The position numbers and the translations under genes were made by a program. Below the pieces are notes generated by a model. That model was not told the DNA's origin and did no database searches. It saw only the letters and a program-made list of their open reading frames with translations. DNA of 53,180 nucleotides from a virus, in IMG/VR virus record IMGVR_UViG_3300050821_003181, positions 1-53,180 of that record; one strand, 5' to 3'. Shown piece by piece: positions 5,018 through 52,096 of the stretch; positions within the stretch are counted from its first letter, which is position 1, and every line of letters begins with the position of its first letter.

Positions 5018-5122
5018 TTTTCTTTCATGTCCGGATGTCCGGCGGAGCGGACAAAACGGACATTCTCCCTTTAGGGAATGTCCGTTGTCCGCCGAGCATC
5101 CCCAAAGACCCGGCTCGTCCGG
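4981..5122. repeat. CCGGAC/GTCCGG repeat cluster, possible replication origin or operator
   Basis: About ten copies of CGGAC or its complement GTCCG lie within 142 bases, in both orientations (for example 4981, 4990, 5005, 5029, 5037, 5048, 5057, 5080, 5087, 5117). They surround an AT-rich run, GTAATTTTCTTTCAT (5014-5028). Part of the cluster forms an inverted repeat: ACGGACATTC (5056-5065) pairs with GAATGTCCGT (5076-5085), extended outward by GGCGGA/TCCGCC. Placement at the end of a RepA-like gene, with an AT-rich stretch inside, fits an iteron-type origin; autoregulation of the ATPase gene is the main alternative. Confidence 0.6.
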
Positions 5123-5136
5123 TGAACAGGAAAGCT

Positions 5137-5313
5137 ATGCCCGAAGCACCAGTCACGACCCAGCCCGACTACGCCGCCGCCATGGCTGCGATCGAGGCCG
5201 CATACCCCGGCATCAACGACGACGGCACCTGCCGCCATGGCGATCGCTTCGACCGCTGCCCAACCTGCTCCCACGCCCCGTCACACCCGCTCCCGCAGGA
5301 CAACGCACCGTGA
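5137..5313 (+). CDS. Small Cys/His-rich protein
   Basis: A 58-residue product; ATG 5137 follows AGGAA. A longer in-frame extension would run back into the repeat cluster. The C-terminal half has C-R-H-G-D-R-F-D-R-C-P-T-C-S-H, a possible zinc-binding arrangement. An acidic Ala-rich helix precedes it. Its stop overlaps the next GTG start. Function unknown. Confidence 0.5.
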   Translation: MPEAPVTTQPDYAAAMAAIEAAYPGINDDGTCRHGDRFDRCPTCSHAPSHPLPQDNAP

Positions 5314-5420
5314 CCGACATCATCGCAGCCATCGCCGCTGGCCTCGCCATCGGATACCTCGCCATGGTCCCCCTCATCATCGTCGCCTGGGCCGTTACCC
5401 ATCGGCGCTCCGCCCCATGA
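5310..5420 (+). CDS. Tiny membrane protein
   Basis: A 36-residue product starting with GTG at 5310, overlapping the previous stop. It is almost entirely one hydrophobic helix (IIAAIAAGLAIGYLAMVPL, then IIVAWAV) ending in a positively charged THRRSAP tail, so a single- or double-pass inner membrane peptide is likely. Stop and next start overlap as ATGA. Function unknown. Confidence 0.5.
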   Translation: MTDIIAAIAAGLAIGYLAMVPLIIVAWAVTHRRSAP

Positions 5421-5641
5421 CCCGCTCCAGCGAAATCGACCAACTGAGAGGCGAGATCGCGCGCCTCACCGAAGCTCTACAGGACACCCACGAGCGCGCC
5501 GCTAGGGAGATCGTCTATCTTCGCCGCCGCGTGGAACCAATCACATTCCTGATCGACCGCGGAAACTACCTGGAGATGCTCCAACTCCTCCATCCGCTCG
5601 ATCAGAAGCGTGTCAGGGAAATGGTGATGAGGGACGCATGA
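5417..5641 (+). CDS. Small coiled-coil protein
   Basis: A 74-residue product at an ATGA overlap. The first 40 residues form a heptad-like coiled coil (EIDQLRGEIARLTEALQDTH), followed by a helical C-terminus (MLQLLHPLDQKRVREMVMRD). Probably a small dimeric protein; role unknown. It is the last clear plus-strand gene before the convergent minus-strand block. Confidence 0.5.
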   Translation: MTRSSEIDQLRGEIARLTEALQDTHERAAREIVYLRRRVEPITFLIDRGNYLEMLQLLHPLDQKRVREMVMRDA

Positions 5642-5688
5642 CACGCTCCTCCGCAATCCCAGCCGTCGCAGCCGCCATAGGCCGCTAG
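5638..5688 (+). CDS. Possible 16-residue ORF
   Basis: ATG 5638 overlaps the previous stop (ATGA) and the frame ends at TAG 5686-5688. The product begins MTRSS, as does the previous protein, then IPAVAAAIGR. It may be a coupled micro-protein, or simply the decayed end of the operon. The rest of the gap to 5744 shows no further gene and no convincing bidirectional terminator. Confidence 0.2.
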   Translation: MTRSSAIPAVAAAIGR

Positions 5689-5744
5689 CGCGCCTCCCAG
5701 GTCATCGCACCGCCGCCAGACCCCAAGCGCCGTCAGCGACGCCC

Positions 5745-5951
5745 CTACCCCAGCGGTGCGTCCCGCGTCTCGTCCAACCGCGCCGTCACCGCCGCGTGCT
5801 CCCGCAGCGCCAACCCAATCCGCTCCGGAACCGCCTTCACACCACGTCGCCACCGGCTCACGTTCTGCACACGGACGCCAAGGACGGAGGCGGCCGTCCC
5901 GTCCGACCAACCCAGGTCTTCCAGCAACCCATCGAACTCCTTCGCCGTCAT
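5745..5951 (-). CDS. Cro/XRE-like HTH protein
   Basis: A 68-residue product; start at 5951, where ATGA overlaps the upstream gene's stop. The layout EFDGLLEDLGWSDGTAASVL, GVRVQNVSRWRRGVKAVP is a Cro-type helix-turn-helix: a helix, a short turn at LGV, and a recognition helix followed by the W..G...VP pattern typical of small phage XRE proteins. It is the last gene of the minus-strand block. It probably binds operator DNA, but I do not see which. Confidence 0.6.
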   Translation of the reverse strand: MTAKEFDGLLEDLGWSDGTAASVLGVRVQNVSRWRRGVKAVPERIGLALREHAAVTARLDETRDAPLG

Positions 5952-6283: not shown

Positions 6284-6628
6284 TCACCTCCCCGCCGGAA
6301 TTTCGAGATACCGCGCCACTGCCCGCGGGTCCGGTATCAAACTGCCGCGAAGTTCCGGCGGAACCTCAGACCGAGCCCCGCGAGCGATGTCCAGCGCTGC
6401 CGAAATCAACGGCCGAACCGCATTCAACGTGTCCCGCATCTCGGTGATGTCCCCCGCCATTCCCGTTTCGCCCAACGCGGTCAATCGACGTGCCACCGCT
6501 GGCAGGTCCAACACTGCGTTGCCAATTGACCCCGATACCCGTTCCAGCGCGTTGTGGACCACTTGCAACCGCATCAGCGTCGCAACGTGGATATCCCGTT
6601 CCATGTCGATTTTTTCGGCGTCACTCAT
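6284..6628 (-). CDS. Helical protein of unknown function
   Basis: A 114-residue product. Start ATG 6628 is chosen because a GGAGG lies about eight bases upstream; an in-frame ATG at 6643 is possible. The sequence is mostly helical (MERDIHVATLMRLQVVHNAL, then ALERVSGSIGNAV), with a Pro-rich last third. No motif recognised. The 177-base stretch upstream to 6805 holds only a weak 14-23-codon frame. Confidence 0.45.
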   Translation of the reverse strand: MSDAEKIDMERDIHVATLMRLQVVHNALERVSGSIGNAVLDLPAVARRLTALGETGMAGDITEMRDTLNAVRPLISAALDIARGARSEVPPELRGSLIPDPRAVARYLEIPAGR

Positions 6629-6805
6629 CGTCCAAGCCTCCATCGCTCATTCCCGCCAAGCCCATGCCCGGCAGGTATCCAGTTACCGCCAAATATTGCA
6701 GGCTACACGCCGCCGGCAGGGTCGCCCGCTACCCCCCTACCGGCTCACCCCTCAGAACCGCCCCACGTCTTGTCGCTATGAGCGGAAACGGCCCTATCGT
6801 GGCCC

Positions 6806-7174
6806 TCAGTCCGCCGCCGCGTCGTAAGCCGTCACCTCGGGAACCAGCGTCAGGTGCGGAACCGGCCGCGCCGGTCCGCTGTACGTCAGCCACCTCGACC
6901 GCGGCACCGGACCACGCTCGATCGGCTGCTCCCTCGGCCCATCCATGATCGGCACCACCCCAGGCGGCAATTCTCCCCCAGGCCAATACCGCGCCACAGG
7001 ATACCGACGCTCCGGCACCTTCAGCCGCGTCCCCCGCGCCGTCGTGAACCCACGATATCGCGGCGGCAGGATCAACCACTGCCCCATGTCAGGCTCCAGG
7101 TCCCATCGCTCGCACACCGCATGAGCCCGCTGTTTCGCTACCTCCCCAGCCTCCCAGAACTCCAACCCGTCCAT
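6806..7174 (-). CDS. Protein of unknown function
   Basis: A 122-residue product starting at 7174. Begins MDGLEFWEAGEVAKQRAHA, a helix, then a Pro/Arg/Trp-rich middle (WLILPPRYRGFTTARGTRL) and an acidic Ala-rich end. Another long frame on the same strand (6729-7079) overlaps it but looks like a shadow. The start lies inside the upstream gene's last 37 bases. Function unknown. Confidence 0.45.
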   Translation of the reverse strand: MDGLEFWEAGEVAKQRAHAVCERWDLEPDMGQWLILPPRYRGFTTARGTRLKVPERRYPVARYWPGGELPPGVVPIMDGPREQPIERGPVPRSRWLTYSGPARPVPHLTLVPEVTAYDAAAD

Positions 7175-7362
7175 AACCGCACCCGGTAGACCGCCAGCGC
7201 CGTCCCAGGCACCGCCGCTCGCCTGCCAGAAGCCCGTACAGCGGTCCCAGGCACCCGGACCAGTGAAGTACCCGGCAATGGGCTAGAGGCCGCCAGCGAC
7301 CCTCTCAGGGCCGCCTCCAGGGCATCCCCGCTCAATCCCCACCACGCAACCGACCCGCTCAT
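7138..7362 (-). CDS. Small protein of unknown function
   Basis: A 74-residue product; the ATG at 7362 overlaps the upstream stop (ATGA). N-terminus MSGSVAWWGLSGDALEAAL, then an Ala/Gly/Val-rich, weakly structured part ending in WTGWSSGRLGR. Overlap with the following gene by 37 bases is larger than usual here. Not recognised. Confidence 0.4.
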   Translation of the reverse strand: MSGSVAWWGLSGDALEAALRGSLAASSPLPGTSLVRVPGTAVRASGRRAAVPGTALAVYRVRLWTGWSSGRLGR

Positions 7363-7565
7363 GGCACCAACTCCGACCGCGCCTTGGCATACTTGCCGAT
7401 CTCCGACCACCACCGGCTGCGTGTCGTGTGCCGCTTGTGGAAATCCACCAGATCGTTCTGCGTCGTGAACGCCAGCCGCATAAGCCGCAGCCACTGCGCC
7501 GCCGTGCCCGCGTCCGGCTCAATGCCCGGAAACATCGCGCGGAACTCCTCCAGTGCCGCCTTCAT
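7359..7565 (-). CDS. Small protein of unknown function
   Basis: A 68-residue product, start ATG 7565 at an ATGA overlap with the ParB-like gene. It begins MKAALEEFRAMFPGIEPDAG and continues helical (TAAQWLRLMRLAFTTQNDLV), ending with basic SEIGKYAKARSELVP. Compact and globular-looking, but no family identified. Coupling to the ParB-like gene suggests a shared role. Confidence 0.5.
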   Translation of the reverse strand: MKAALEEFRAMFPGIEPDAGTAAQWLRLMRLAFTTQNDLVDFHKRHTTRSRWWSEIGKYAKARSELVP

Positions 7566-8422
7566 GCCACGTCTCCGGGGGAAACCAGGGACCGCAACCG
7601 ACCGATCGCCGGCAACACCACCCCCTCATAGTCCGCGCCACCATCCCAAGCCGCCAGGAACTCCCGGCACGCCCGCGCCAACTCCCCATGCGCCATCACC
7701 TCAGGCTCATGCCGCGGATGATACGGCGCAGTCTCAGGCACCGGCCGCGGCGCACGGCTCACCGGTGTCCCCGCCTTCACCGCCTTAATGACGCCCGCCG
7801 TCGCCTTCCCCTTCGGCGAAGCCGCAACCGCCTTCTCCAGCACGGCAACCGCCCCCGCCTCCCCCTCAGACCGAACGAGGAGGACCGCTTCCCGAGCACT
7901 CACCGCACCGCCGGCCACAGCCTCCCGTATCGCGTCAGGACTGGCGGCAAGGTCCAACAAATTGGCCACATGCTGCCGCGTCCGACCAATCCGCGCCCCG
8001 ATCTCCGTCTCCGTCCAGCCAAACGCCACCAACCGCTTGCACACCGCCGCCTGTTCCAACGCCGACAACGGCAGCCCGTTATTCGCCGTCAGCAACATCA
8101 GCGCACGCTCCGCCGCACTGGTTCCGCGCGCCTCCGGCAGACAGGGCAAACGCTTGATCTCACACCCCCGCGCTATCGACACACGCACCGCCGCCAATCG
8201 GCAATGCCCGTCAACCACTATCGCCCGATCTCCCGCCAGTCGCACAACCAACGGCTTGGATGACAGGAACCCGATCGCCGCAATACTGTCCGCCAGCGCG
8301 AGCACATGCGCCGCCAACTCCGGTGTATCGGTGCGGACGTTGAACGCCGGATCGATGTCCAGTGCCTCGACCGGCAGGTTGAACAGATCGCTTGTGCTGT
8401 CCGCCAAATCCTTCAGCCTCAT
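7562..8422 (-). CDS. ParB/Spo0J-like nuclease-domain protein
   Basis: A 286-residue product with start at 8422 (ATGA overlap); longer in-frame extension is shadow. The N-terminal part has the ParB-type sequence LVVRLAGDRAIVVDGHCRLA, with the G-H-x-R-x-x-A box in VDGHCRLAAV, followed by an HTH region (LVAFGWTETEIGARIGRTRQ, then HVANLLDLAASP). C-terminus is Pro-rich plus a helical ending. No ParA-type ATPase gene is nearby. Phage ParB-like proteins can be DNA-binding or nuclease enzymes, so partition is not assumed. Confidence 0.7.
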   Translation of the reverse strand: MRLKDLADSTSDLFNLPVEALDIDPAFNVRTDTPELAAHVLALADSIAAIGFLSSKPLVVRLAGDRAIVVDGHCRLAAVRVSIARGCEIKRLPCLPEARGTSAAERALMLLTANNGLPLSALEQAAVCKRLVAFGWTETEIGARIGRTRQHVANLLDLAASPDAIREAVAGGAVSAREAVLLVRSEGEAGAVAVLEKAVAASPKGKATAGVIKAVKAGTPVSRAPRPVPETAPYHPRHEPEVMAHGELARACREFLAAWDGGADYEGVVLPAIGRLRSLVSPGDVA

Positions 8423-8793
8423 GGCACGTCCCCCGCATCCATCGCCACGGGACCGGGCACAACCGCGCCCGCCGGCAACCACGCAAAGCTGGTCCGCACT
8501 CCAACAAACCCGTCCGCACTCGGCACCACCGTGATCTGGCATCCGCACAGCATCAGCAACGCGCACAACGTCGCCGCGCCCTTCGCCATGATCGCCGATG
8601 CACGCGCCAGCCCAGTGCGCAGATCGGTATGGGGGAAGCCGTCAATCGCCACCCGCAACCCTTTCGTGCGGCTGCGATGCACAAACACGACATGTCCCGC
8701 CTTCATCACGTCGCGCAGCAACGCCCGGTCAGCATTGTTCGCCAGCATGTCAATGCGACGATCCCACGTCATACGCTTGGATTGTATCAGCAT
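8419..8793 (-). CDS. Two-part protein with an internal lipoprotein signal
   Basis: A 124-residue product, start 8793 after the GAGGGG leader. The first half is basic and mostly beta (GHVVFVHRSRTKGLRVAI). The second half, from an internal ATG, reads MAKGAATLCALLMLCGCQIT, a good bacterial lipoprotein signal with lipobox ending in Cys, then a Pro-rich tail. Either a separate lipoprotein starts inside the frame, or the two have fused through loss of a stop. Both readings are possible; I favour an internal start. Confidence 0.5.
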   Translation of the reverse strand: MLIQSKRMTWDRRIDMLANNADRALLRDVMKAGHVVFVHRSRTKGLRVAIDGFPHTDLRTGLARASAIMAKGAATLCALLMLCGCQITVVPSADGFVGVRTSFAWLPAGAVVPGPVAMDAGDVP

Positions 8794-8860
8794 GTTCAGC
8801 CCCTCGCTGTTCCCACCCCAGCACAACGCCAGGGCGGTTCGGTGTCCGCTCAGTCCGCCG

Positions 8861-9436
8861 CTACTCCCCGAAATAGAAACAGCCGCAATACGCCAGCAAC
8901 GTGTCCTGATCGATCCCGCTGTGCACCTCAGTCCACGGCGTAAACCAGTCCTGACACTCCATCCAAGCTCGCGTCGGTTCGCAATGCTCGCTCAACTCCC
9001 CCATGATCCTAACCGCCGGGCCGCCCGTGCATAACAGCACCTCGAATTGCTCCGCCTCCATCTTCTCTCCAGGCGAGCACCATCCCGAGCGCACTTGCAC
9101 GCTTAATGCGTCCTCCTCGATCTCGCGCCGCGCCTCCTCGGAATCCGGCCGTAGCCCGTTATCATCGCAACACGCCAGCCATGCCGCGTCTTCGTCGTCG
9201 TGCGTCGTTCCATCGTCCACACGATCCTTGCCCCAGCACCAGCCCGAATTGCCCTCATCGTCGGTCGTCTCAGTAACCCGGAACCCCGCATCCGTGGCCA
9301 GTTCCTTCGCCATCTCCGCATACGCATCGTCGTCATCAGCCGCGCGCAGCTTCGCTACCATCTCGGCAATGCTCGCATACTGCGCCATCGCCTGCGAACG
9401 TGCCGCAGCAATCTTGTCGTCGTCTGTATTGGCCAT
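8861..9436 (-). CDS. Acidic conserved-looking protein of unknown function
   Basis: A 191-residue product, start ATG 9436 following a GCGAAAGG leader. Acidic throughout: an Asp/Glu-rich helical N-terminus (ANTDDDKIAAARSQAMAQYA) and a Trp/Cys-containing middle. The C-terminal part reads FEVLLCTGGPAVRIMGEL, then EVHSGIDQDTLLAYCGCFYF, which I have seen in hypothetical proteins of phages and alphaproteobacteria. I cannot name a function. Acidity would suit a DNA-mimic role, but that is speculation. Confidence 0.55.
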   Translation of the reverse strand: MANTDDDKIAAARSQAMAQYASIAEMVAKLRAADDDDAYAEMAKELATDAGFRVTETTDDEGNSGWCWGKDRVDDGTTHDDEDAAWLACCDDNGLRPDSEEARREIEEDALSVQVRSGWCSPGEKMEAEQFEVLLCTGGPAVRIMGELSEHCEPTRAWMECQDWFTPWTEVHSGIDQDTLLAYCGCFYFGE

Positions 9437-9513
9437 TGTCGCAAACCTTTCGCTTGCTATCGCAGCACCCCAACGGCACCGCGCCATTCCGTTACCCTAT
9501 CAGTCGCGTAGTG

Positions 9514-9807
9514 TCAACATCCCCATGCACACCGCTTCATCCGGTTGCGCAGGCTGGCCACAGTATCCTTGCCAATCTTTCGCCCCAGCATGATGTCCTG
9601 CATCGCCATCGACATAGGACCCGCAAGAAAGTCCCTGAAATCAACAGGCACCTTGCACAATGCCTCACGCATCACCTTAGGCCAGTCCGCCCAGTCGCAC
9701 GCATCCGAACGCATCCAATCGGCCAAGGCATCAACGCCCGCATAACCCCGACGCTCCTCCAGCATCAGACGTAACTGATCAATGTTCGTCTGCATTACGT
9801 TCGCCAT
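9514..9807 (-). CDS. Protein of unknown function
   Basis: A 97-residue product, start ATG 9807 overlapping the preceding stop (TGATG). Helical, with many Asp/Arg/Met residues (QTNIDQLRLMLEERRGYAGV, then LADWMRSDACDWADWPKVM). Three Cys, two near the C-terminus. No recognisable family. It lies between two other small unknown genes on the same strand. Confidence 0.5.
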   Translation of the reverse strand: MANVMQTNIDQLRLMLEERRGYAGVDALADWMRSDACDWADWPKVMREALCKVPVDFRDFLAGPMSMAMQDIMLGRKIGKDTVASLRNRMKRCAWGC

Positions 9808-14408: not shown

Positions 14409-16316
14409 GTGGCGAAGGCCGCAACCAAATGGCTGCCATTGTTCCGGACCTACATCAGTCACCTCCGGATCACCAGCAAGCACGCGGCTGAAGACCCTGA
14501 TGGAGACGGCATTCCACTGAAACTATGGACCTCGCAGACGCGCGTACTTGAGGAGATATGCGATGGTTTGGAGAACGGCATCCACACGTTCTACGTGCTC
14601 AAAAGCCGGCAGCTTGGCGTTACTACTGTTACTCTAGCGATATTGTTGTTCTGGTTGGCTCTGCACCCCAATACCATCGCGTGCCAGGTGTCGGAGAGTG
14701 ACAAGTCATCGGTGAAAAACCGAGCTACAATCTCAGCTTATCTCGCATCGCTCGAAGCCTTCATGGGCAAGAGCTTCGGGGTCATCAAGAACAACAAGTA
14801 CGGCATTACGTTCCGCAACAAGAGCCGGTTGGACTTCCTGGTGGCGGGAAAGAGCAAGACCAACTGGGGCGAGGGTGAGGGCTATCTTGCCGGTGTGCTG
14901 ACCGAGGTCGCGGCGTATGGCAGAGAGGAAGGCATCGACAGCTTCCGACATGCTACCGCTCCCGAGAACCCACGCGCTTTATATATTTACGAAGGCACCG
15001 CAAAGGGTCCGAACCACTGGAAGGATATGTGGGAAGCAGCACTACAGGACGAGTACACCTCGCGCTGCATCTTCGTGGGCTGGTGGTCACATGACTTGCA
15101 GAGGATCAAGGCAACTGACCGCCGGTTTGTGTCGTTTGGCATAGAGCAACCGACACCTCTGGAGCACGACTACATCGTGGCCGTTCGGCACCAGTACGGT
15201 TACGAGGTCGATCGCGAGCAGTTGGCTTGGTATCGGTGGCAGGCGACACTGCCTAATTCTAACATCGCCGATCTTGATCAGAACCAGGCGTGGACGGCCC
15301 AGCAGTGTTTTGTCCAGTCCGGCATTAGCTTTTTCCAGACACGGTTGCTGGCAAAGCGGCGTGATGAGATACAGGACGCGCCAGCCAATACGAGCATCGA
15401 GGACGGCGGGTTTGGTTACAAGGCTTACAACTTCTACCTCGGCGATGACTACCATCTGTCCAAGGTCGAGGAGATCATCTCGTTCATACCGCCGGAGCAG
15501 CGCAAGCTCCGCATTTGGGAAAAGCCGCACCCTGAGGGGTGGTATTCGATCGGCGTTGATCCTGCGTTCGGGCGAAATGACGTAGGAGATTTGCATGCTA
15601 TTGAGGTGTGGCGGTGCTTCGCTGACCGCATGGTGCAGGTGGCGGAGTGGGCCGATAATGTGCCCGATACGCGGCATTGCGCATGGGTCATGGCGTTCCT
15701 GGCGGGGCAATATCAGAACTGCCGGCTGAACGTGGACCTGACCGGCGGGCCGGGGGCGGCAGTGATGCAGGCGTTCCAGGACTTGCGCGACCGCATGCGC
15801 AGCGAGCTTTATGCCGGCAAGGTCGAAGTGTTTGAGGACTTCCTGGCGGCTGCGAACTGGTATCTGTACCGGCGCATCGACAGTCCAGGGCCAGGGTATA
15901 TGTACAACACCAAGGTGGGGCGCGATCTCAAGTTCCGCATGATGAACATGCTGCGGGATAGCTGGGTCACCAATCTGTTGGAGATCAGGTCGATACCGTT
16001 GCTGGATGAAATGGCCAACGTGCGACAGGCGAACAGTGATATAGCAGCAGAGATCGGGCCGAGTGGGACTGGCAAGAGCCGGGATGATCGGACGTTCGCG
16101 CTGGCGCTCGCGCACCTCACATGGGCCGAGAACCTGCGGCCGGGACTGATCGCGCAGGGGATCACCTGGGAGGGCACCAAGGCCAAGGAGAAAGGCGAGA
16201 TTTCACCATTGGCCGATCGGTTAAACAGGCGCGTGTACTCGCTGATGAAAGCGGCGGACGAGGCAATGGACCTGCCACCTCCGCGCACGTTCTTTGAACA
16301 GAGGGGCTTGAACTAG
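14409..16316 (+). CDS. terL: Terminase large subunit (TerL)
   Basis: A 635-residue product from GTG 14409. ATPase domain: Walker A-like KSRQLGVTT (about 65-73), with the acidic Walker B-like VLTEVAAY segment near 163-170. Nuclease domain of RNase H-like fold: GVDPAFGRND (Asp384), NVDLTGGPG (Asp443) and SRDDRTFALALAH (Asp559/560) supply the acidic residues that bind metal. It packages DNA into the prohead by ATP-driven translocation and cuts concatemers. Length fits tailed-phage TerL (about 500-650). The gene anchors the morphogenesis block. Confidence 0.95.
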   Translation: MAKAATKWLPLFRTYISHLRITSKHAAEDPDGDGIPLKLWTSQTRVLEEICDGLENGIHTFYVLKSRQLGVTTVTLAILLFWLALHPNTIACQVSESDKSSVKNRATISAYLASLEAFMGKSFGVIKNNKYGITFRNKSRLDFLVAGKSKTNWGEGEGYLAGVLTEVAAYGREEGIDSFRHATAPENPRALYIYEGTAKGPNHWKDMWEAALQDEYTSRCIFVGWWSHDLQRIKATDRRFVSFGIEQPTPLEHDYIVAVRHQYGYEVDREQLAWYRWQATLPNSNIADLDQNQAWTAQQCFVQSGISFFQTRLLAKRRDEIQDAPANTSIEDGGFGYKAYNFYLGDDYHLSKVEEIISFIPPEQRKLRIWEKPHPEGWYSIGVDPAFGRNDVGDLHAIEVWRCFADRMVQVAEWADNVPDTRHCAWVMAFLAGQYQNCRLNVDLTGGPGAAVMQAFQDLRDRMRSELYAGKVEVFEDFLAAANWYLYRRIDSPGPGYMYNTKVGRDLKFRMMNMLRDSWVTNLLEIRSIPLLDEMANVRQANSDIAAEIGPSGTGKSRDDRTFALALAHLTWAENLRPGLIAQGITWEGTKAKEKGEISPLADRLNRRVYSLMKAADEAMDLPPPRTFFEQRGLN

Positions 16317-22864: not shown

Positions 22865-23959
22865 ATGTCCGGTTCAGTCACGCAATTCACCGGCCCGTCT
22901 TCTGGCGGTCTGGTTCCTGGTGGCCTCACCGGGCAGCAGCTTTCCTACATCACCCGACGCGCGATCATCCCGACCGTCTTCGTCCAGGTCTATCAGGCGC
23001 ATCCGCTGCTCTCGATGCTGCTGGCGAACACGCAGGCCGCCATGGGCGGCGTCGGGCAGATCACCTTCCCGGTCCAGGGCAGCTCGTTCGTCTCTTTCCA
23101 GTGGGGCGGGTTCGGCGGAGATTTCCAAATCCCGCAGGATCAGGTCGCGCTCAATCAGGCGCAGTTCAACCTCAAAGCCGGCATGGTGCCGATCGGGTTC
23201 TTCGGCTTTGAGAGCATCATCCAGTCGAGCGAAGTGGTCATCCCAAAGCTCCGGGCGGTCACCTCTGACGCCGCCGTGGTGATGAAGCAGAGCCTCGCCA
23301 CCGCGCTCTACCAGAACACCGGCAACAACCTGGCTTTGGACTCTCTGGTCGGTGCCTTCGACAACGGGACAAACGTTCCGTCCTATGGCGGCATCCCGCG
23401 GACCAACGGCTACTGGCAGGGCCAGTACTACCCAAACAGCGCCACCATCGTGAATCGCCTCGGCATCGCGCAGGCGCTGGTGAAGGTGCAGACCGGAGCA
23501 GGCGGCGAGGCCCCGGATTTCGTGGTGATGAACCCGGTCAACTGGGCCACGCTCATGGCCGACTTCATGGGCGCGGAGGTGTTTCAGACCACACCGCGAT
23601 CGATCTATGGCCGGGATGCCGTGGTCAACGCCGGGTTCCGTGCGATCCGCGTTCTCGATACCCCGGTGTTCCCCGACCCGTTCTGCCCGGTCGGCGAGAT
23701 GTACGCGATCAACTCGCGCTACCTCGCGATGTTCATGCACCCGAGCCTGCAAATGTACTTCACCGGGTTCGAGAGCATGATCCCGCAGGGGCAGTTGGCG
23801 TCCATCGGCGTGCTCGTGGCGGCACTGAATATGTGCTGCATGAAGCCGTCCTCGGGCGCCCACTTCACCGGGTTGCAGTCACCGGCCTGGTCGGGACCGC
23901 CATCGCCGCCGCCCGCACTCGCTTCGCAAACGGCTTTCGCCGGCCAGCCACTCGCGTAA
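22865..23959 (+). CDS. Major capsid protein
   Basis: A 364-residue product, ATG 22865. It follows the scaffold-like gene and has the layout of podovirus capsid proteins: an N-terminal arm (LTGQQLSYITRRAIIPTVFV), a central mixed domain with PDFVVMNPVNWATLMADFMG and FRAIRVLDTPVFPDPFCPV, and a C-terminal Pro-rich tail. HK97 fold is inferred, not visible at residue level. Two adjacent Cys (NMCCMKPSS) lie near the end. Confidence 0.75.
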   Translation: MSGSVTQFTGPSSGGLVPGGLTGQQLSYITRRAIIPTVFVQVYQAHPLLSMLLANTQAAMGGVGQITFPVQGSSFVSFQWGGFGGDFQIPQDQVALNQAQFNLKAGMVPIGFFGFESIIQSSEVVIPKLRAVTSDAAVVMKQSLATALYQNTGNNLALDSLVGAFDNGTNVPSYGGIPRTNGYWQGQYYPNSATIVNRLGIAQALVKVQTGAGGEAPDFVVMNPVNWATLMADFMGAEVFQTTPRSIYGRDAVVNAGFRAIRVLDTPVFPDPFCPVGEMYAINSRYLAMFMHPSLQMYFTGFESMIPQGQLASIGVLVAALNMCCMKPSSGAHFTGLQSPAWSGPPSPPPALASQTAFAGQPLA

Positions 23960-41090: not shown

Positions 41091-41723
41091 ATGTTCCTCA
41101 ACAACTCCGGCACCCAGCAGGGTCTGCATCGCTCCTACCGAGCGGACGGCGCGCTTACGAGCAGCGTGACACCACTGCTCGTTCTGCCACAAGCGATCAG
41201 CCGCTCGTCCATGCTGGTGATGAACATCTCAGCCACCCCGATGTTCCTTGAACACGGCTGTGCCCGAGCCTTGGTCACGATCACCGCAGGAGCTGTCACC
41301 GCGATCACCGTCACCAACGGAGGGTTCGGGTTCACCCGCGCTCCCACGGTGGAATTTGTTGGTGGAGACGCGACGTACGTTGCTAATACGGTTTGGAATG
41401 GTCGTGGATTGCCGGGCGCGCAGTCTCCGTCTGGACCGACCTCGCAGCCTGCCATGGCACATGCGGTCCTGACGGGAGGCGTGGTCACGTCGATAGTCAT
41501 CGACAACCCCGGCGCGGGTTATGTGAATCCGCCGGAGGTTCTGTTGACCAACGCGGTCAACGATCCGTTCGGATGTGCCGATCCGTCGTTGACCGCAGGC
41601 AGCGGGGTTCTGCTCGTGCCAGGAGGCGGCAGCATGTACATCAACGGCACCACCTGCTACACCGACGCCGTTGCGCTCTGGGGAACTGCGGCGGCCAAGT
41701 TCACGGTGGAGTATATGCCGTGA
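41091..41723 (+). CDS. Glycine-repeat virion protein
   Basis: A 210-residue product, ATG 41091. It contains GGFGFTRAPTVEF and GAGYVNPPEVLL, the same repeat found in the genes at 23972 and 25822, and begins with a helical and beta start with no leader peptide. The end is beta-rich. An elongated tail-tip part is plausible. Stop overlaps the first signal-peptide gene (GTGA). Confidence 0.55.
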   Translation: MFLNNSGTQQGLHRSYRADGALTSSVTPLLVLPQAISRSSMLVMNISATPMFLEHGCARALVTITAGAVTAITVTNGGFGFTRAPTVEFVGGDATYVANTVWNGRGLPGAQSPSGPTSQPAMAHAVLTGGVVTSIVIDNPGAGYVNPPEVLLTNAVNDPFGCADPSLTAGSGVLLVPGGGSMYINGTTCYTDAVALWGTAAAKFTVEYMP

Positions 41724-42124
41724 CCGTCCGGTTGATCGCGATTGCGGCGGTGGCGCTGATGCCGGCGATGGCGTGGGCGCAGCCGGTGGTGCCGGGAAGT
41801 GGATCGGCTGGCGGCATCCCCGGTGGCGTAATACTGGTGCCTCCTACCGGCACTCCAAATGAAACTTCGGTTCCCTGTGGTGTGGGCTCGACCTTATTGC
41901 TTGCAGCAGGGGCCGCGACACAGTTCATTTTTTACAAGGTCCCGCAGGGCGGCAGCACGGTATGGTTCAACGTCGCCGGTGCGCCAGCCGTGGCAGCGCC
42001 TCCAAGCGTCGATCTGGCCGGCGGCATGTGGCAGACGTGGAGCGCCGCGCAGGGATTCTTACCGTCCTCACAGATCAACTGCATCGCGCCCGTCGCACAG
42101 ACCGTCGAACTGATCTGGAAATAG
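41720..42124 (+). CDS. Secreted protein 1 of the exported cluster
   Basis: A 134-residue product from GTG 41720, coupled to the gene before it. Sec leader: TVRLIAIAAVALMPAMAWAQ, likely cleaved after AWA, then a Gly/Pro-rich and beta mature part. Two Cys remain after cleavage (VPCGVGS, INCIAP), so one disulfide is possible. Known roles of the fold are not clear. It opens a run of six genes with leaders. Confidence 0.6.
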   Translation: MTVRLIAIAAVALMPAMAWAQPVVPGSGSAGGIPGGVILVPPTGTPNETSVPCGVGSTLLLAAGAATQFIFYKVPQGGSTVWFNVAGAPAVAAPPSVDLAGGMWQTWSAAQGFLPSSQINCIAPVAQTVELIWK

Positions 42125-42130
42125 CGCGCG

Positions 42131-42496
42131 ATGTCGATCCTTCGCCGTTACCTCCTGGCCGTTGCCATCGCCACGGCGCTCGCCGCGATCAGTGCTGTGC
42201 TGCCCGCCCATGCGCAGACCCCGTGCCCGATGGTCAGCGACGAGGTTTCGGTGCTGTCGGTGGTGATCATCGGCGCACCGCAGCCGGTGCTGTTCTCCAC
42301 CTACGACATACCGAAGCTTAACCTGTGGCTGCAATTCTCCGACCAGACGTATCGGTTTTTCATGGGCGTCCCGCAGACGGAGATACGCGGCACGGCGAAC
42401 TGGTCGGTCATCAGTAGACACCATCAGGCGTTGATGCAGGAACGTAGCCCGTGTCCGCTGCTCTCGGAGAGCGGGCCGCCGCTGCAACCCAGATGA
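42131..42496 (+). CDS. Secreted protein 2, weakly KTSC-like
   Basis: A 121-residue product, ATG 42131. Sec leader ends PAHAQ; the mature part begins TPCPMVSDEVS. FSTYDIPKLNLWLQFSDQTY, then RFFMGVPQTEI, resembles the KTSC domain (weak). Two Cys in the mature part (TPCP, SPCP). Its stop overlaps the next start as ATGA. Function unknown. Confidence 0.55.
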   Translation: MSILRRYLLAVAIATALAAISAVLPAHAQTPCPMVSDEVSVLSVVIIGAPQPVLFSTYDIPKLNLWLQFSDQTYRFFMGVPQTEIRGTANWSVISRHHQALMQERSPCPLLSESGPPLQPR

Positions 42497-44295
42497 AACG
42501 GTTTGCCACGGCCGCACTGCTCGTCAGCACTGCGCTGTCGGCGCAAGCGCAGCCGGTGAGCACACTGCCTCCAGCGGACCTGCCGCTAAGCGGAGCGGAG
42601 ACAACGTACGTCATCCAGGGCGGTGTGTCGAAGAAGACCCCGGTTTCGTCCATGGGCGCGTTCCTAAGTCTGTCCACGCCACCCCCGATCGGCAACGTTA
42701 CCCCCAACACAGGCGCGTTTTCGACGCTGACGGTCGGGGGCGTTCCGATCGCCGGGGGGTCGTTTCTGCCGATCACCGGCGGCACGCTGACGGGGCCATT
42801 GATTGGCACTAGCGGAACCTTCAACGGCCAGCTCATCTCAACCGGCACCAACCTCGTCGCGGCTGGCAACGGCACGTCTATCAACAACGTTATCCGGCTC
42901 AATCCCGCCGCGTCGCCAACCGTGCCGACAATCACTACGGCAGGACCAGCCGGCGCGGTGCCGCTCACGCTGACAACTCAGAGCGGCGGTCTGTTCACCG
43001 TCACCAACGGATTGCAGACCAATGCTTTCCTGAATATTGCCGCCGGCCTGACCACGTATGCAGGTCCGGCAATCACCAATACGCCGTTCAAAATGAGCGT
43101 CAGCGTCAATACCGGTACGCACCTCACGGGCAACGACACGCTCGCATCGTTCAACTGCAATTCGGACAATGGCTTGGTGGACAACGGCGGTTTTCTGTCC
43201 TGTATGAGCATCCAGGATGGCGTCGGCGGTTCAGCCATGACCGGCAATCGCGTCGGGTTTAATCAGGTCATATCCCTTACCAATCCGACCGGAAACAGGG
43301 CCGCAGGAAATCAGGGCATCTATCAGGGCGGCAGCTTCACGGTAAACCTAAATTCCAGCGACAATGGCACGGCGGCAACGCTCGCTGGCGGTTCGGGTTA
43401 TGCCTTTGGCGGGGGTGCCGTCATGGCCGGCAATGCTTCCGCGCTGAATTTCCTGGAAGCTACGACGTGGGAGGATGATATGACCTTCCGCGGCACAACG
43501 GCCCGCCGCATCGGCCACAAGGTCACGGATATCTCTGGCGCACTCGGCCTCGGCGCTGTCCAGGGCACCGTTGCGGATCAGGCTTTCCGTATTGGCTCCA
43601 GCGTCAATAGTCCGGGATGGCTTGATGGGTATTCGGCGTGCGGAGACGTGTCAGTCTGGTGCATCACTGGCACGCTGCTCCATTCGCAGCTTGGCACGAC
43701 ATACAATGCGAACCCGAACGCGCTGCAATATGGCATCGATCTGGTCGGCACGGCCGCAAGCGGGGCCGAGTGGCGCTCAAACGGCATTGCGCTGTTCGAC
43801 AACGGCGCGGCGCGTTTCAACACGCTCTATATCAACAACGACACCAACGGGCCGACGCTCAGTGCGAACGGGAGCGTTGGCGCATATTCGTCGGTGATTT
43901 CTGGCGGGACCTCGGGATGGGCGGGGACTGACGTGCTGTTCGGACCATACGACGATGTGTGGCAAGTTTTGACAACCACAGGTGGCGTCATCACCGCGTT
44001 GGCACTGGCGACTGGTTCCACCCCGCCGTATTGCCCGAGTGCGTGCCCCGCCAGTTACAACCTGACCAAGGCAAAATGGTCCGCTGGCGTTGGCACTGTG
44101 ACCGTGGGCGTGAGTTGGACAGCAAAGAACGCACTCAAGATCGCGGGCGCAACCGACAAGCTGGGGTTCTACAACGCAACGCCGATCGTCAAGGCAACGC
44201 CAACGGGCGCGTGCGCGGGCAACACGGGTTGTCAGGCACTGCGTGACGCGATGGGCAATCTTGGGTTGATCGCAACGGGGAGTATTACAAATTGA
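42493..44295 (+). CDS. Tail-fibre-like protein with a Sec leader
   Basis: A 600-residue product; ATG 42493 is coupled to the gene before and starts the leader KRFATAALLVSTALSAQAQ. The mature part begins like a phage fibre shaft (ETTYVIQGGVSKKTPVSS, then GGTLTGPLIGTSGTFNGQL) and ends like fibre tips of proteobacterial phages (KLGFYNATPIVKATPTGA). It has eight Cys arranged in four near-neighbour pairs, as in disulfide-bonded exported proteins. A virion fibre with a leader is unusual; an alternative is an in-frame start at 42451, which would hide the leader. Confidence 0.6.
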   Translation: MKRFATAALLVSTALSAQAQPVSTLPPADLPLSGAETTYVIQGGVSKKTPVSSMGAFLSLSTPPPIGNVTPNTGAFSTLTVGGVPIAGGSFLPITGGTLTGPLIGTSGTFNGQLISTGTNLVAAGNGTSINNVIRLNPAASPTVPTITTAGPAGAVPLTLTTQSGGLFTVTNGLQTNAFLNIAAGLTTYAGPAITNTPFKMSVSVNTGTHLTGNDTLASFNCNSDNGLVDNGGFLSCMSIQDGVGGSAMTGNRVGFNQVISLTNPTGNRAAGNQGIYQGGSFTVNLNSSDNGTAATLAGGSGYAFGGGAVMAGNASALNFLEATTWEDDMTFRGTTARRIGHKVTDISGALGLGAVQGTVADQAFRIGSSVNSPGWLDGYSACGDVSVWCITGTLLHSQLGTTYNANPNALQYGIDLVGTAASGAEWRSNGIALFDNGAARFNTLYINNDTNGPTLSANGSVGAYSSVISGGTSGWAGTDVLFGPYDDVWQVLTTTGGVITALALATGSTPPYCPSACPASYNLTKAKWSAGVGTVTVGVSWTAKNALKIAGATDKLGFYNATPIVKATPTGACAGNTGCQALRDAMGNLGLIATGSITN

Positions 44296-44834
44296 TCCGC
44301 GCGCTCGCTGCGTTCCTGCTTTCGCTCATCACGATCTCCGCCGATGCGCAGGTTGTGTCAAACGGAACAACTGCGCCCGGCTTCGTGCGCCTGTTCTCGA
44401 ACGGCGTCTCGTCCGGCAACGGCGCCGATATCACCGAGGACACGCTATCGACGTGCGTCTATACAATCCCAGCCAACCAACTCGCGAACGTCGGCGACAC
44501 GCTGCATATCGTGGCAGGCGGCACCTTCGCAGGTAGCACGGATGTCAAGACAGCAAGGGTGCGGCTGGGCGGCGTTACCGTGGCGTCGTTCGTCGGGTCC
44601 ACTGCCGGGGCAACCGCGTGGTTCATGCAGGCGGATGTCATCAAGACCGCAGCCGGGGCTCAGATGACCAACACGTTTTCATTTGCGCTCAACCAGACAT
44701 CGTTTGTGCTGGGTGGAGCAACCGCACTCACTGATACCGCTACGATCCCGCTGCTGGTGACCGGGATCAACGCGACGAACTCGGTGGCGGGGTCGATTAC
44801 GTGCCGGTATCTGACCGTGGATTTTGTGCCGTGA
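44292..44834 (+). CDS. Secreted beta-sandwich-like protein
   Basis: A 180-residue product, TTG 44292 overlapping the previous stop (TTGA). Leader MIRALAAFLLSLITISADAQ. Mature part beta-rich (TCVYTIPANQLANVGDTLHI, VKTARVRLGGVTVASFVGS), like a jelly-roll tail domain. Two Cys (STCVY, ITCRY), one possible disulfide. Third of the consecutive fibre-like or beta-rich exported products. Confidence 0.55.
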   Translation: MIRALAAFLLSLITISADAQVVSNGTTAPGFVRLFSNGVSSGNGADITEDTLSTCVYTIPANQLANVGDTLHIVAGGTFAGSTDVKTARVRLGGVTVASFVGSTAGATAWFMQADVIKTAAGAQMTNTFSFALNQTSFVLGGATALTDTATIPLLVTGINATNSVAGSITCRYLTVDFVP

Positions 44835-45061
44835 TGCGGCGCGCGCTCCTTGCGGCGCTTGTGCTGATGCCGTGCGCGGCCGTGGCGCAGCAACAGCCGC
44901 CCGCGCCATCGGCCACGGCGCAGTTCGTGGGGCAGGTTTCCACGCTGCTCGCCTCGACGCTGGATGAGCGGGACGCCGCACGCTCGCAACTCACCGCGTG
45001 CCAGGCCGCAGCCAAGCCGGCGCAGCCGCCAACGCCATCACCGGAGACGCCCTCCAAATGA
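44834..45061 (+). CDS. Small secreted protein
   Basis: A 75-residue product, ATG 44834 at a TGATG overlap. Leader RRALLAALVLMPCAAVAQ; the mature part has a coiled stretch (QFVGQVSTLLASTLDERDAA) and a Pro-rich tail. One Cys remains. Overlaps the next start by ATGA. Unknown. Confidence 0.5.
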   Translation: MRRALLAALVLMPCAAVAQQQPPAPSATAQFVGQVSTLLASTLDERDAARSQLTACQAAAKPAQPPTPSPETPSK

Positions 45062-45144
45062 GTGGAACCACGACGCTTACCATCACCGGCACCTTCACGG
45101 TCCACGACGCGGCCGGCACAGTGACGGGCAGCACCACACCGTGA
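45058..45144 (+). CDS. 28-residue ORF duplicating the GH5 protein's N-terminus
   Basis: Starts at ATGA overlap 45058. The product reads SGTTTLTITGTFTVHDAAG, then TVTGSTTP, almost the same as residues of the large GH5-like protein at 46152 (AVTITGTFTVHDAAG). The DNA also matches over 40 bases (45079-45118 with 46182-46221, two mismatches). It may be a leftover of that gene's 5' end or a functional mini-module. Confidence 0.5.
   Translation: MSGTTTLTITGTFTVHDAAGTVTGSTTP
45079..45118 (+). repeat. 40-base direct repeat, copy 1
   Basis: Matches 46182-46221 in direct orientation with two mismatches (positions within the CACSTTCACGG and GACGCSGCCGG segments). The two copies bracket about 1.1 kb holding a tiny membrane gene, a secreted protein gene and an HNH endonuclease gene. 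Suggests duplication or insertion. Confidence 0.8.
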
Positions 45145-45254
45145 TGTCGGCCTATGGAGTTATGACAGTGGCCGCTGCGGCATTCGCTGTGGGATTTATT
45201 GTAGGAGCAGCATTGGCCTTCTGGGGCATGCAGCAGGAGAACCGCCAGCCATGA
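45144..45254 (+). CDS. Small membrane protein
   Basis: A 36-residue product, ATG 45144 at a TGATG overlap. One strong hydrophobic helix (VAAAAFAVGFIVGAALAFWG) and a short polar end. Coupled to the next gene by ATGA. Unknown function. Confidence 0.45.
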   Translation: MSAYGVMTVAAAAFAVGFIVGAALAFWGMQQENRQP

Positions 45255-45547
45255 TCCGCACGCTCCTAGTCGCGCTGGCGCTCGCCGCTCTGTCCGGCGC
45301 GGTGCGTGCGCAGAACACGACAGCGATGTTTGGTGATCTGAAATTCGAGAGTGGCAACAGCGGCGCTACAAACGCGCAGGCCATTTATCCGGCAATCAAC
45401 GCGCCGTTCGGATCGACGGCCATCGCGGTTAATACGACCGCCGTGGACACAACGGCCGACGCCTTCGTCAACATCAACGGCACGCTGGCGCTCGGCACTG
45501 AGACGCTGACGCTGCTTGGGTACACGGTTGAAATTCTGAGGCAATGA
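45251..45547 (+). CDS. Small secreted protein, last of the exported cluster
   Basis: A 98-residue product, ATGA overlap. Leader MIRTLLVALALAALSGAVRA, then QNTTAM; the mature part is Asn/Thr/Ala-rich and beta (INAPFGSTAIAVNTTAVDT). No Cys in the mature protein. Function unknown. The next in-frame start (45544) runs into the HNH gene. Confidence 0.5.
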   Translation: MIRTLLVALALAALSGAVRAQNTTAMFGDLKFESGNSGATNAQAIYPAINAPFGSTAIAVNTTAVDTTADAFVNINGTLALGTETLTLLGYTVEILRQ

Positions 45548-45627
45548 GTGATACAATGATGCGAGCCAGAGAGGCGTTTGCACCGCCGCCCTGGCTCTTA
45601 CCACGACATCCTGTGATGGAGGATACA

Positions 45628-46155
45628 ATGGCTGATGGCGATGATACGCCAGAGTGGCGCCCAGTTCCAGGGTTCCCGAATTATCTCGTTAGCTCGGATG
45701 GCAAAGTCCTAAGCCTTAAGCGACGTGGAGCGCCGGGCGGCATTCGCAAAACATTCGATCACGGGTCAGGGCATCTACATGTCGTTCTATTAAACGGTTC
45801 ACATAATGACCGACACGGTTTTATGGTTCACCATTTAGTTTTGGAAGCATTCGTTGGGCCTCGACCGCAAGGTATGGAATGCCGGCATTTGGACGGCAAC
45901 CCTGCCAATAATGTAGTTAGCAACCTTGCGTGGGGAACACGATCTGAAAACCAACTCGATCGCGTCTCTCATGGCACGCACCACGAGGCAAACAAAACGC
46001 ACTGTCCCCATGGTCATCTTTACGACGAGCAGAATACCAGACATCGAAACGGCAAGAGGCATTGTATGACTTGCCAGCGTAAGGCGACCAGAGAATCCAT
46101 GAAACGTCTGAAGCTGCGCCGAAAGAAGGTAATGCGTCAGGAGACACCGCAATGA
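45628..46155 (+). CDS. NUMOD4/HNH homing endonuclease
   Basis: A 175-residue product; ATG 45628 follows GGAGG with five bases between. A start at 45544 is in frame and coupled to the preceding gene, so the first 28 codons may belong to a small interrupted gene. NUMOD4 motif: EWRPVPGFPNYLVSSDGKVL; HNH motif: VHHLVLEAFVGPRPQGMECR, HLDGNPANNVVSNLAWGT. C-terminal Cys-x-x-Cys pair (MTCQRK area) and basic tail bind DNA. GC content is clearly lower than in neighbouring genes (about 38-50 percent in sampled lines), as in recent arrivals. Confidence 0.8.
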   Translation: MADGDDTPEWRPVPGFPNYLVSSDGKVLSLKRRGAPGGIRKTFDHGSGHLHVVLLNGSHNDRHGFMVHHLVLEAFVGPRPQGMECRHLDGNPANNVVSNLAWGTRSENQLDRVSHGTHHEANKTHCPHGHLYDEQNTRHRNGKRHCMTCQRKATRESMKRLKLRRKKVMRQETPQ

Positions 46156-47402
46156 GCACCACGGCACCGACCACGGCCGTCACCATCACCGGCACGTTCA
46201 CGGTCCACGACGCCGCCGGCAACACCTGGGGGCCGATCGCCGCTCCGACGCCGCCCCCGCTGGTCGCCTCACAGGACGGCGCAACCGCCTCCGACCTCAC
46301 CACGATCCTCGTCACGGCCGATCTGTGCCAGTGGAAGCTGGCGGTGGGGACGGCATCCCAGGGCACCATCGTGACGTGCATGCCGAAGGGCGCCGCGGCG
46401 TTCGTGGCGGCCGGGTTCACCGGCAACGTGCGGATGATGGAGGCGTTTGGGGGCGGCATCTTCCACACGTCGCCGAACGCCAGCAGCTACGGGGCGCCTG
46501 GTTGGTGGGCAGGCACTGGCACGGGCAGCGCCGTGGCATGGGCAGCGGTGCCGGGCAGTCCCAGCGCCGTTCCTGTTCCCCCGGTCACTGGCACCTTCAC
46601 CGTGACGGCCACAGGGTTCACCGATCCATCCGGCAAGCCGTGGACGATGCGGGGGGTGAACGCTTGGGCGGCCGATGCCCGTGCTGCATGGCCGAACATT
46701 CGGAGCCAATTCCCGCACCTAACGGCGATCAGGCTGAATTGCGACAGCGCCACGGACACGCCAGCCAGTATCGTCGATGTCGTCACAACATACACCGGCG
46801 CCGGGATCGTGCTCATCGTCGAAGACCACGGCGGCAATGTCGAGAACCTCCAATGGTATCACAACATGGCCACGGCCTATAAAAACAACCCGCGCGTATT
46901 TCTGGAGATGCCAAACGAGCCATCAGCGTCCAATCTGGCGGCTGAGCAGATCGCACTCATCCAGCAAATTCGCAACGCTGGATTTGTCAGCCCAATCGCC
47001 ATTCAGCCATCCGGGGGATGGGACGAAGGGAATCTGCCAGCGGTCGTGGCCGCGGTCGGCACGACGAACCTCTATGCGACCCCACACATCTACTACAACG
47101 GCACCGATCCGAACGGTGCGGCGCAATACGTGACTGGCGAGATCAACGGTGCGGCTGCGGTCGGCCTGTTCGCCTCGATCGACGAATTCGGTGACGGCAT
47201 GGATGGCTGGCACGAAGACCCGCTTGGCTCGGCGACGATCAACGCCGTCATCGCTGCCAATCAGGCTGGGCGTTGCGGAGCGGCATTCTGGGCACTCGCG
47301 AACGGCATGCACGCCGATGGCGTGGATAGCGTTGAACTGGTGGCCGACTGTTCGCAACTCACGCCGGTCGGCGCGGGGCCGATAAAGAACTGGTTGGGGT
47401 AG
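46152..47402 (+). CDS. GH5 cellulase-like enzyme with N-terminal module
   Basis: A 416-residue product, ATGA overlap at 46152. Residues 1-145 hold a module with TITGTFTVHDAAGNTWG (same as the 28-residue ORF). Residues 150-416 are a TIM barrel of GH5 type: Arg194 (IRLNCDS), catalytic acid Glu256 in FLEMPNEPS, His312/Tyr314 in TPHIYYNG, nucleophile Glu345 in IDEFGDG, Trp380 in AFWALANG. The whole catalytic set is present, so beta-glucan or cellulose cleavage is likely. No leader peptide is seen, so it is probably virion-bound through the N-terminal module, inferred. Two homing endonuclease genes flank it. Confidence 0.8.
   Translation: MSTTAPTTAVTITGTFTVHDAAGNTWGPIAAPTPPPLVASQDGATASDLTTILVTADLCQWKLAVGTASQGTIVTCMPKGAAAFVAAGFTGNVRMMEAFGGGIFHTSPNASSYGAPGWWAGTGTGSAVAWAAVPGSPSAVPVPPVTGTFTVTATGFTDPSGKPWTMRGVNAWAADARAAWPNIRSQFPHLTAIRLNCDSATDTPASIVDVVTTYTGAGIVLIVEDHGGNVENLQWYHNMATAYKNNPRVFLEMPNEPSASNLAAEQIALIQQIRNAGFVSPIAIQPSGGWDEGNLPAVVAAVGTTNLYATPHIYYNGTDPNGAAQYVTGEINGAAAVGLFASIDEFGDGMDGWHEDPLGSATINAVIAANQAGRCGAAFWALANGMHADGVDSVELVADCSQLTPVGAGPIKNWLG
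46182..46221 (+). repeat. 40-base direct repeat, copy 2
   Basis: Second copy, inside the 5' end of the GH5-like gene, matching 45079-45118. See copy 1 for the bracketed segment. Confidence 0.8.
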
Positions 47403-51329: not shown

Positions 51330-51527
51330 ATGCTCACGCTTCTCCCCGTTATCCTACAGTTAGTTGAGGCCGGCATTACCGTGGCCCCGCAACTGATCGC
51401 CGCCGGCAAGACGGAGATTAGCCTGGTGAACGCTGGGGCGGCTCCTACTGCGGCGCAGATGGCGCAGATTGATGCGGCTCTCGACGCTGCGAACACCGCT
51501 CTCCAGAACGCCCAGCCTGCGCCGTGA
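51330..51527 (+). CDS. Small protein between lipoprotein and endolysin
   Basis: A 65-residue product, ATG 51330 preceded by AGGAGA. Hydrophobic N-terminus (LTLLPVILQLVEAGITVAPQ) and Ala-rich helix (AAQMAQIDAALDAANTALQN). May be membrane associated. Function unknown. Confidence 0.5.
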   Translation: MLTLLPVILQLVEAGITVAPQLIAAGKTEISLVNAGAAPTAAQMAQIDAALDAANTALQNAQPAP

Positions 51528-52096
51528 GCGCAGCGCAGGATGCGTGGCTCGCGTTTCTGCTTCCGGCAGAGGGCTTGACGCTCTCGGTAACACCGACTGA
51601 CCCCGGAAACTGGACCTCGGGGATTGAGGGCATCGGCGAGTTGGTCGGGACAAAATACGGAATCAGCGCGGCGGTCTACCCAACAACGGACATAGCCGCA
51701 CTGACGCTGGCCGAGGCGCAGGCCCTGCAACTGGCAGACTACTGGACCCCGGTCGGTGCCGACAGCCTCCCGCCGCCGCTCGCCTTCCTGGTCGCCGACG
51801 CGGCCTATATGTCTGGCCCGCGCACCGCGGCGAGGCAATTACAGGTGATGGTTGGCACCGCTCAGGATGGCGCAGTTGGTCCTGTCACGATCGCGGCGCT
51901 GACGGCGCAGATTGCAAAGCTCGGCATGTGCGAGGTACTGGCCGAGTGGAGTGCGCGGCGGGTTCTGTTCGAGGCTGGGTTGCCGATCTGGGGCACCGAC
52001 AAGGGCGGTTGGGTGCGGCGGGTGATGCGCGGGCTGCTGGTGGCGAAGTCGCTGGATGTGCCGGCGCTGGCGGTCAGCGGGGGGGCGGTGGCGTGA
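51524..52096 (+). CDS. Endolysin, GH108-type muramidase
   Basis: A 190-residue product from GTG 51524, overlapping the previous stop. FLLPAEGLTLSVTPTDPGNW gives the catalytic Glu16 within the E-G-(x)n-P-x-D-P-G block of glycoside hydrolase 108; GTKYGISAAVYP and QALQLADYWTPVGADSLPPP follow. C-terminal part has the PG-binding-3 layout (ARQLQVMVGTAQDGAVGPVT). It cuts peptidoglycan at the end of infection. No leader, so the holin or another route must let it reach the wall. Confidence 0.85.
   Translation: MSAAQDAWLAFLLPAEGLTLSVTPTDPGNWTSGIEGIGELVGTKYGISAAVYPTTDIAALTLAEAQALQLADYWTPVGADSLPPPLAFLVADAAYMSGPRTAARQLQVMVGTAQDGAVGPVTIAALTAQIAKLGMCEVLAEWSARRVLFEAGLPIWGTDKGGWVRRVMRGLLVAKSLDVPALAVSGGAVA

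Follow-up and report, generated by a model that had tools for sequence, protein, structure and literature searches.

A cellulase-like gene in a virus genome raises the question of which polysaccharide its product cuts, and whether that cut serves infection or metabolism. We investigated this for a gene at positions 46152–47402 (plus strand) of the window, the whole stretch of DNA analysed here: a viral record 53,180 bases long. The gene encodes a 416-amino acid GH5 protein without a signal peptide, which an earlier note, made from the DNA letters, had described as a cellulase-like enzyme that could cut a path to the cell surface if the host makes cellulose or beta-glucan.

A GH5 gene with a complete active site in a phage genome

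Upstream of the GH5 gene, the window encodes recognisable tail-type proteins, a terminase large subunit (14409–16316) and a major head protein (22865–23959), and downstream of it a GH108 endolysin (51524–52096, plus strand; PF05838, 46 bits, cut-off 21.2). Flanked by viral genes, the GH5 gene is truly phage-borne. As the GH108 gene is a separate lysis muramidase gene, the GH5 enzyme is not needed for lysis, and an endolysin role for it was ruled out. Codon-usage support for the ORF is strong (96.3), and this coding signal, combined with the family match described below, rules out a chance ORF. The ATG at 46152, which has AGGAG just 5′ of it and overlaps the stop of the preceding gene, is a credible start.

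Using profile searches, we found that PF00150 (Cellulase) was the single Pfam family to score above its cut-off (residues 233–382; 28.3 bits versus 23.5; E 1.5e-6). The 416-amino acid protein had no match in PHROGs, and its sole match in NCBIfam fell far under the cut-off. R194, E256 (in NEP), H312, E345 (in DEFG) and W380 all lie where the earlier note had placed them. H226, N255 and Y314 are also present and complete the usual GH5 set, bringing the active-site residues found to eight of the eight sought (194, 226, 255, 256, 312, 314, 345 and 380). The proposed lack of a leader was borne out as well: a purpose-written heuristic, used in place of SignalP, found no signal peptide, whichever start in the first 60 codons was taken.

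We used AlphaFold2 with five aligned phage domains to generate a predicted structure of the catalytic barrel (residues 143–416; 46578–47402, plus strand), in which model residue n corresponds to protein residue n + 142 (pTM 0.75, mean pLDDT 68). In this model, R194 lies within strand 192–197, H226 after strand 220–225, E256 after strand 249–252 and H312 after strand 307–309. E345 is placed in a short strand and W380 in strand 377–381, with low confidence from E345 to W380. Confidence drops below 50 at protein residues 288–291, 346–352 and from 375 on, and the low-confidence stretches 204–210 and 233–274 (model numbering) lie beside E345 and cover W380. The structure prediction, suggested beforehand as a check, puts the glutamates at strands 4 and 7, which is the GH5 layout.

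Membership of family 5 is indicated by a profile score above the curated cut-off, by glutamates after β4 (NEP) and β7 accompanied by Arg, His, His/Tyr and Trp, and by a (β/α)8 fold nearest to GH5 enzymes. Together, the Pfam match, the residue set, the domain model and the structure alignments support the original claim that this phage encodes a GH5 enzyme whose active site is intact. GH5 enzymes are retaining and act by a double-displacement mechanism.

The gene closes a chain of leader-bearing and fibre-like genes

The GH5 gene is the last of an unbroken chain of plus-strand genes (42131–47402) in which neighbours overlap by one to four bases. The chain begins with a signal-peptide protein kept in relatives (42131–42496) and a fibre-like signal-peptide protein whose N terminus is conserved in relatives (42493–44295). 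These are followed by a signal-peptide protein with a TTG start (44292–44834), a small signal-peptide protein (44834–45061), a 28-amino acid mini-ORF (45058–45144), a small ORF with one hydrophobic stretch (45144–45254), a signal-peptide protein of 98 amino acids (45251–45547), an HNH endonuclease (45544–46155) and finally the GH5 protein (46152–47402). Just before the chain, a GTG-started gene (41720–42124, plus strand) encodes another signal-peptide protein, with no Pfam match, so that Sec-signal-like starts occur in five chain genes and in this one.

In a first leader scan, strong signals were obtained for 4 of the 51 window frames, all in this block, while 3337–3813 was weak. When all six frames were scanned from ATG and GTG starts, the window gave 13 leader frames, of which five lie in the block on the plus strand and eight are scattered across both strands; the sixth leader gene of the block is the one with the TTG start. 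Neither Pfam nor PHROGs matched the 42493–44295 protein itself, and as a query it found no viral contig. We call it fibre-like on the basis of an S74 match in one relative, a weak tail-fibre match in another and shared N termini. Export of fibre-like phage proteins would be unusual.

The GH5 gene had been described as lying just after tail genes. This holds in a wider sense, as small secreted-type proteins and the fibre-like gene lie upstream of the HNH gene, but the immediate neighbour is the HNH endonuclease (45544–46155, plus strand), which carries NUMOD4 (PF13392, PF07463 and a PHROGs HNH match) and overlaps the GH5 start by 4 nt. Because the GC content of this gene (0.523) is below that of the GH5 gene (0.653), its composition suggests a recent arrival.

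An N-terminal module with a duplicated 5′ end

Residues 1–142 (46152–46577, plus strand) form an N-terminal module of no known family. They had no above-cut-off match in Pfam, PHROGs or NCBIfam, and tblastn with residues 38–139 against the phage and plasmid collections gave no hit up to E 10. A known particle-anchoring domain was sought in residues 1–142 with the same three libraries and none was found; the full-length model has low confidence over the module and is unreliable there. GC content reaches 0.718 across 46152–46583, the N-terminal part of the gene. A possible likeness of the module to a W-W repeat module of bacterial glycosidases carries no weight in the reading given here.

At its 5′ end, the GH5 gene carries 52 nt (46170–46221, plus strand) that are 88% identical to 45067–45118, with an alignment score of 80 versus a shuffle maximum of 30. 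The mini-ORF at 45058–45144 and the GH5 protein have the N-terminal motif TITGTFTVHDAAG in common, and a regular-expression scan across the loci examined located this motif at these two places only. A DNA link from the 5′ repeat to the beginning of the GH5 domain scored no better than shuffles (37 versus a shuffle maximum of 40).

Relatives carry larger exported GH5 enzymes in the same slot

Relatives were gathered by capsid protein (38 viral loci) and by terminase (12 loci), and 44 related records, many of them short fragments, were searched whole. The entire window GH5 protein had no match in these 44 records at E 0.1 or better, while PF00150 matched long open frames in six of them (G005, G006, G008, G009, G014 and G020). 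In all six, the GH5 gene lies behind a homologue of the fibre-like gene 42493–44295, with the N-terminal match seen in loci L059 to L064. The window GH5 gene thus sits in the slot that relatives use for a larger exported enzyme, with some small genes between. These six records share with the window a capsid-defined phage group, the slot after the fibre-like gene and a homologous GH5 domain.

The enzymes themselves differ. The three scanned with Pfam are leader-bearing proteins of about 940–1,390 amino acids, whereas that of the window is leaderless and consists of a single domain plus a small module. Second hydrolase or esterase domains set the relatives' enzymes further apart: GH5 is combined with a GDSL esterase and GH26 in G014, with GH26 and, by eye, an esterase-like stretch ahead of GH5 in G005, and with a sub-cut-off Peptidase_S9 match in G020. 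GH26 is therefore present in two of the three scanned architectures and a GDSL esterase in one. The large leader-bearing enzymes of GH5/GH26/esterase type map to L059 5965–9810, L061 10225–14403 and L060 9611–12433. In the phage collection, the only matches to the L059 enzyme were six unannotated records of faecal phages, which aligned with its GH26 part.

The relatives' GH5 domains are 24–31% identical to that of the window, and the catalytic glutamates are invariant. In the alignment, the G014 and G005 types (the types of loci L059 and L061) lack conservation of the arginine and the strand-3 histidine, which leaves room for functional divergence. Active-site conservation is judged on four different phage sequences, and three of these share 24–31% identity with that of the window.

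Leader-bearing proteins of the window's kind were found in L059–L062, L067, L069, L071, L072 and L074, including one in L072 (17559–19925) with an S74 tail-fibre chaperone. Of ten proteins from relatives that bear leaders or are fibre-like, nine had no family in PHROGs. G025, whose capsid and terminase place it closest to the window (both 100%), stops about 7.5 kb past its capsid gene, too early to show the slot. In G011 (L074), a GDSL-type protein (6575–7861) and a leader-bearing protein (7951–9747) that matches a glycosyl-hydrolase core below the cut-off lie next to a portal-like gene (4106–5887), on the side away from the capsid gene. Judging by this placement, the block of enzymes may shift position in the genome.

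No close relative of the whole GH5 protein was found in the phage, viral-contig or bacterial-genome collections searched, and the plasmid collection gave one weak match, a Dietzia cellulase-family protein (26%). Alignment of the capsid protein against bacterial genomes yielded no confirmed match and no prophage relative in a named host.

Structure and profile comparisons lean to mannan

We compared the domain model with solved structures using VIA-align. The ten best matches were all beta-mannanases (Z 19.5–20.3; rmsd 3.0–3.3 Å; 235–242 residues aligned), followed by an endoglucanase at Z 17.7 and then by GH5-type endoglucanases. Using Foldseek with the same model, an endoglucanase ranked first and unrelated barrels were mixed in. 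A profile built from four phage domains (A1) placed a beta-mannanase first (2e-8), while a broader profile from five phage domains (A6) found mannanases far more weakly (3e-4). Searching with the single window GH5 domain in phmmer returned nothing significant, and the best, non-significant, matches were endoglucanases.

The substrate signals for this domain thus conflict. VIA-align and the profiles name beta-mannanases, a GH5 subfamily labelled GH5_8, while Foldseek and the non-significant single-sequence matches name endoglucanases. Of the earlier designation as a cellulase, the family stands, but cellulose specificity does not follow: cellulase is only the name of the Pfam family, and the top VIA-align structures are beta-mannanases. 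On model-based grounds, the protein appears to be a GH5 endo-beta-1,4-glycanase that leans to mannan.

Comparison with known GH5 enzymes

The actinomycete and bacilli GH5 beta-mannanases that lead the comparison (1bqc, 3wsu, 4fk9, 2whl, 3jug and 1wky) have the fold and active-site layout predicted for the window domain. They are only 13–20% identical to it, and none was found by single-sequence search; the window protein also differs from them in having no leader and another N-terminal module.

A phage precedent is Erwinia phage S6, which needs host cellulose and encodes gp095, a verified cellulase with a C-terminal GH5 domain that degrades carboxymethylcellulose (PMC9544554). The same text counts Pseudomonas phage Skulduggery among the phages encoding gp095 homologues (PMC9544554). 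When the full-length window model was compared with viral structures, the best match was the Skulduggery GH5 protein; this 416-amino acid model is poor (mean pLDDT 47), and its structure matches are weak evidence. Like gp095, the window protein has its GH5 domain at the C terminus, preceded by a distinct N-terminal part, and is encoded in a variable region of a phage genome (PMC9544554), near tail genes. The two differ in several respects. The window protein had no sequence match in the phage collection, and the phage lineages are different. Moreover, the description of gp095 includes choice-of-anchor D domains, whereas the window's N-terminal module matches no family, and the predicted structural preference for mannanases sets the window protein apart from the S6 cellulase.

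A viral GH5 protein from peat at Stordalen Mire has been expressed and is an endomannanase active on glucomannan and galactomannan; it is offered there as a carbon-cycling gene and not as a tail-region depolymerase (PMC6786970). It resembles the window protein in being a GH5 enzyme on a viral contig, and the window model likewise aligns best with mannanases in VIA-align. Phage GH5 enzymes are therefore already known, and that of the window is a variant; the exported-type operon and the relatives' GH5/GH26 combinations are less ordinary.

Proposed role and alternative explanations

On balance, we favour a phage-encoded retaining GH5 endo-beta-1,4-glycanase that probably acts on mannan or glucomannan rather than on pure cellulose and depolymerises polysaccharide around the host. 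By analogy with GH5 enzymes, the acid/base of the double displacement would be E256 and its nucleophile E345, and beta-1,4-linked chains around the host would be cut with retention. Because the protein has no leader, it would leave the cell on the particle, by way of its N-terminal module, or at lysis. Cutting the matrix would then free progeny and clear the way for the next adsorption. The least certain step is that the substrate would be host exopolysaccharide and not plant hemicellulose. That such an enzyme opens a path to the cell surface, as the earlier note supposed, is plausible by analogy with S6 (PMC9544554).

If this reading is right, it adds a compact, leaderless enzyme to the phage GH5 proteins and indicates that one environmental phage lineage reserves a place for hemicellulase-type enzymes beside fibre-like genes. 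It would also make testable whether soil viral ‘carbon-cycling’ hydrolases are depolymerases that serve infection, and would tie the published viral endomannanase and the published phage that depends on cellulose together as two expressions of a single function.

The export signals predicted in relatives point to secretion as much as to a tail part. A tentative extension, to which we give limited weight, is that the lineage carries an exported module for attacking polysaccharide. The signal-peptide proteins of its operon, fibre-like ones among them, with a GH5-containing enzyme at the end, would be secreted before lysis by the infected cell's own export machinery. They would dissolve a surrounding matrix rich in mannan or glucan, whether or not they are also mounted on the tail. 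The leaderless GH5 protein of the window might then take another route, its N-terminal module, shared in part with the 28-amino acid mini-gene, binding the particle or an exported partner.

Under a metabolic explanation, which we consider rather unlikely, the gene would be an auxiliary metabolic gene whose product breaks down plant beta-mannan or other hemicellulose and feeds the host or the community, with no part in adsorption. The activity of the peat viral endomannanase on glucomannan and galactomannan (PMC6786970) fits such a role, as do the beta-mannanases closest in VIA-align and the leader-bearing GH5, GH26 and esterase set of the relatives, which suits acetylated hemicellulose. However, the window protein is leaderless and chained with fibre-like genes, not with metabolic genes, and our searches returned no prophage relatives, so that nothing hints at a lasting lysogen to which the enzyme would be of benefit.

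Improbable in our judgement is the version originally put forward, in which the first receptor of a virion-bound cellulase is cellulose made by an Acetobacteraceae-like host, as proposed for gp095 of S6 in Erwinia. The S6 precedent, with its need for host cellulose and the activity of gp095 on carboxymethylcellulose (PMC9544554), speaks for it, and so do the endoglucanase at the top of the Foldseek matches of the domain model and the presence of an N-terminal module of the protein's own. Yet mannanases lead both the VIA-align and the profile searches, the bacterial genomes searched hold no relative that would name the host, and searches of the N-terminal part in Pfam, PHROGs and NCBIfam reveal no known anchor. 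Returning to the favoured depolymerase, we regard it as somewhat less probable still that the locus instead holds a decaying gene or a GH5-type barrel, divergent or lacking catalysis, that does no more than bind polysaccharide as a lectin-like adhesin: the 24–31% identity to phage relatives, the weak Pfam score and a locus that looks disturbed by the adjacent homing-type endonuclease and the duplicated 5′ end would suit this, but all eight residues sought are present in an intact ORF with a good ribosome site and a coding signal.

Elsewhere in the window, the protein encoded at 29719–30813 matches PHROG 10855 (hydrolase), and similar N termini, of the PRSRTAWLARFLSY type, occur in several relatives.
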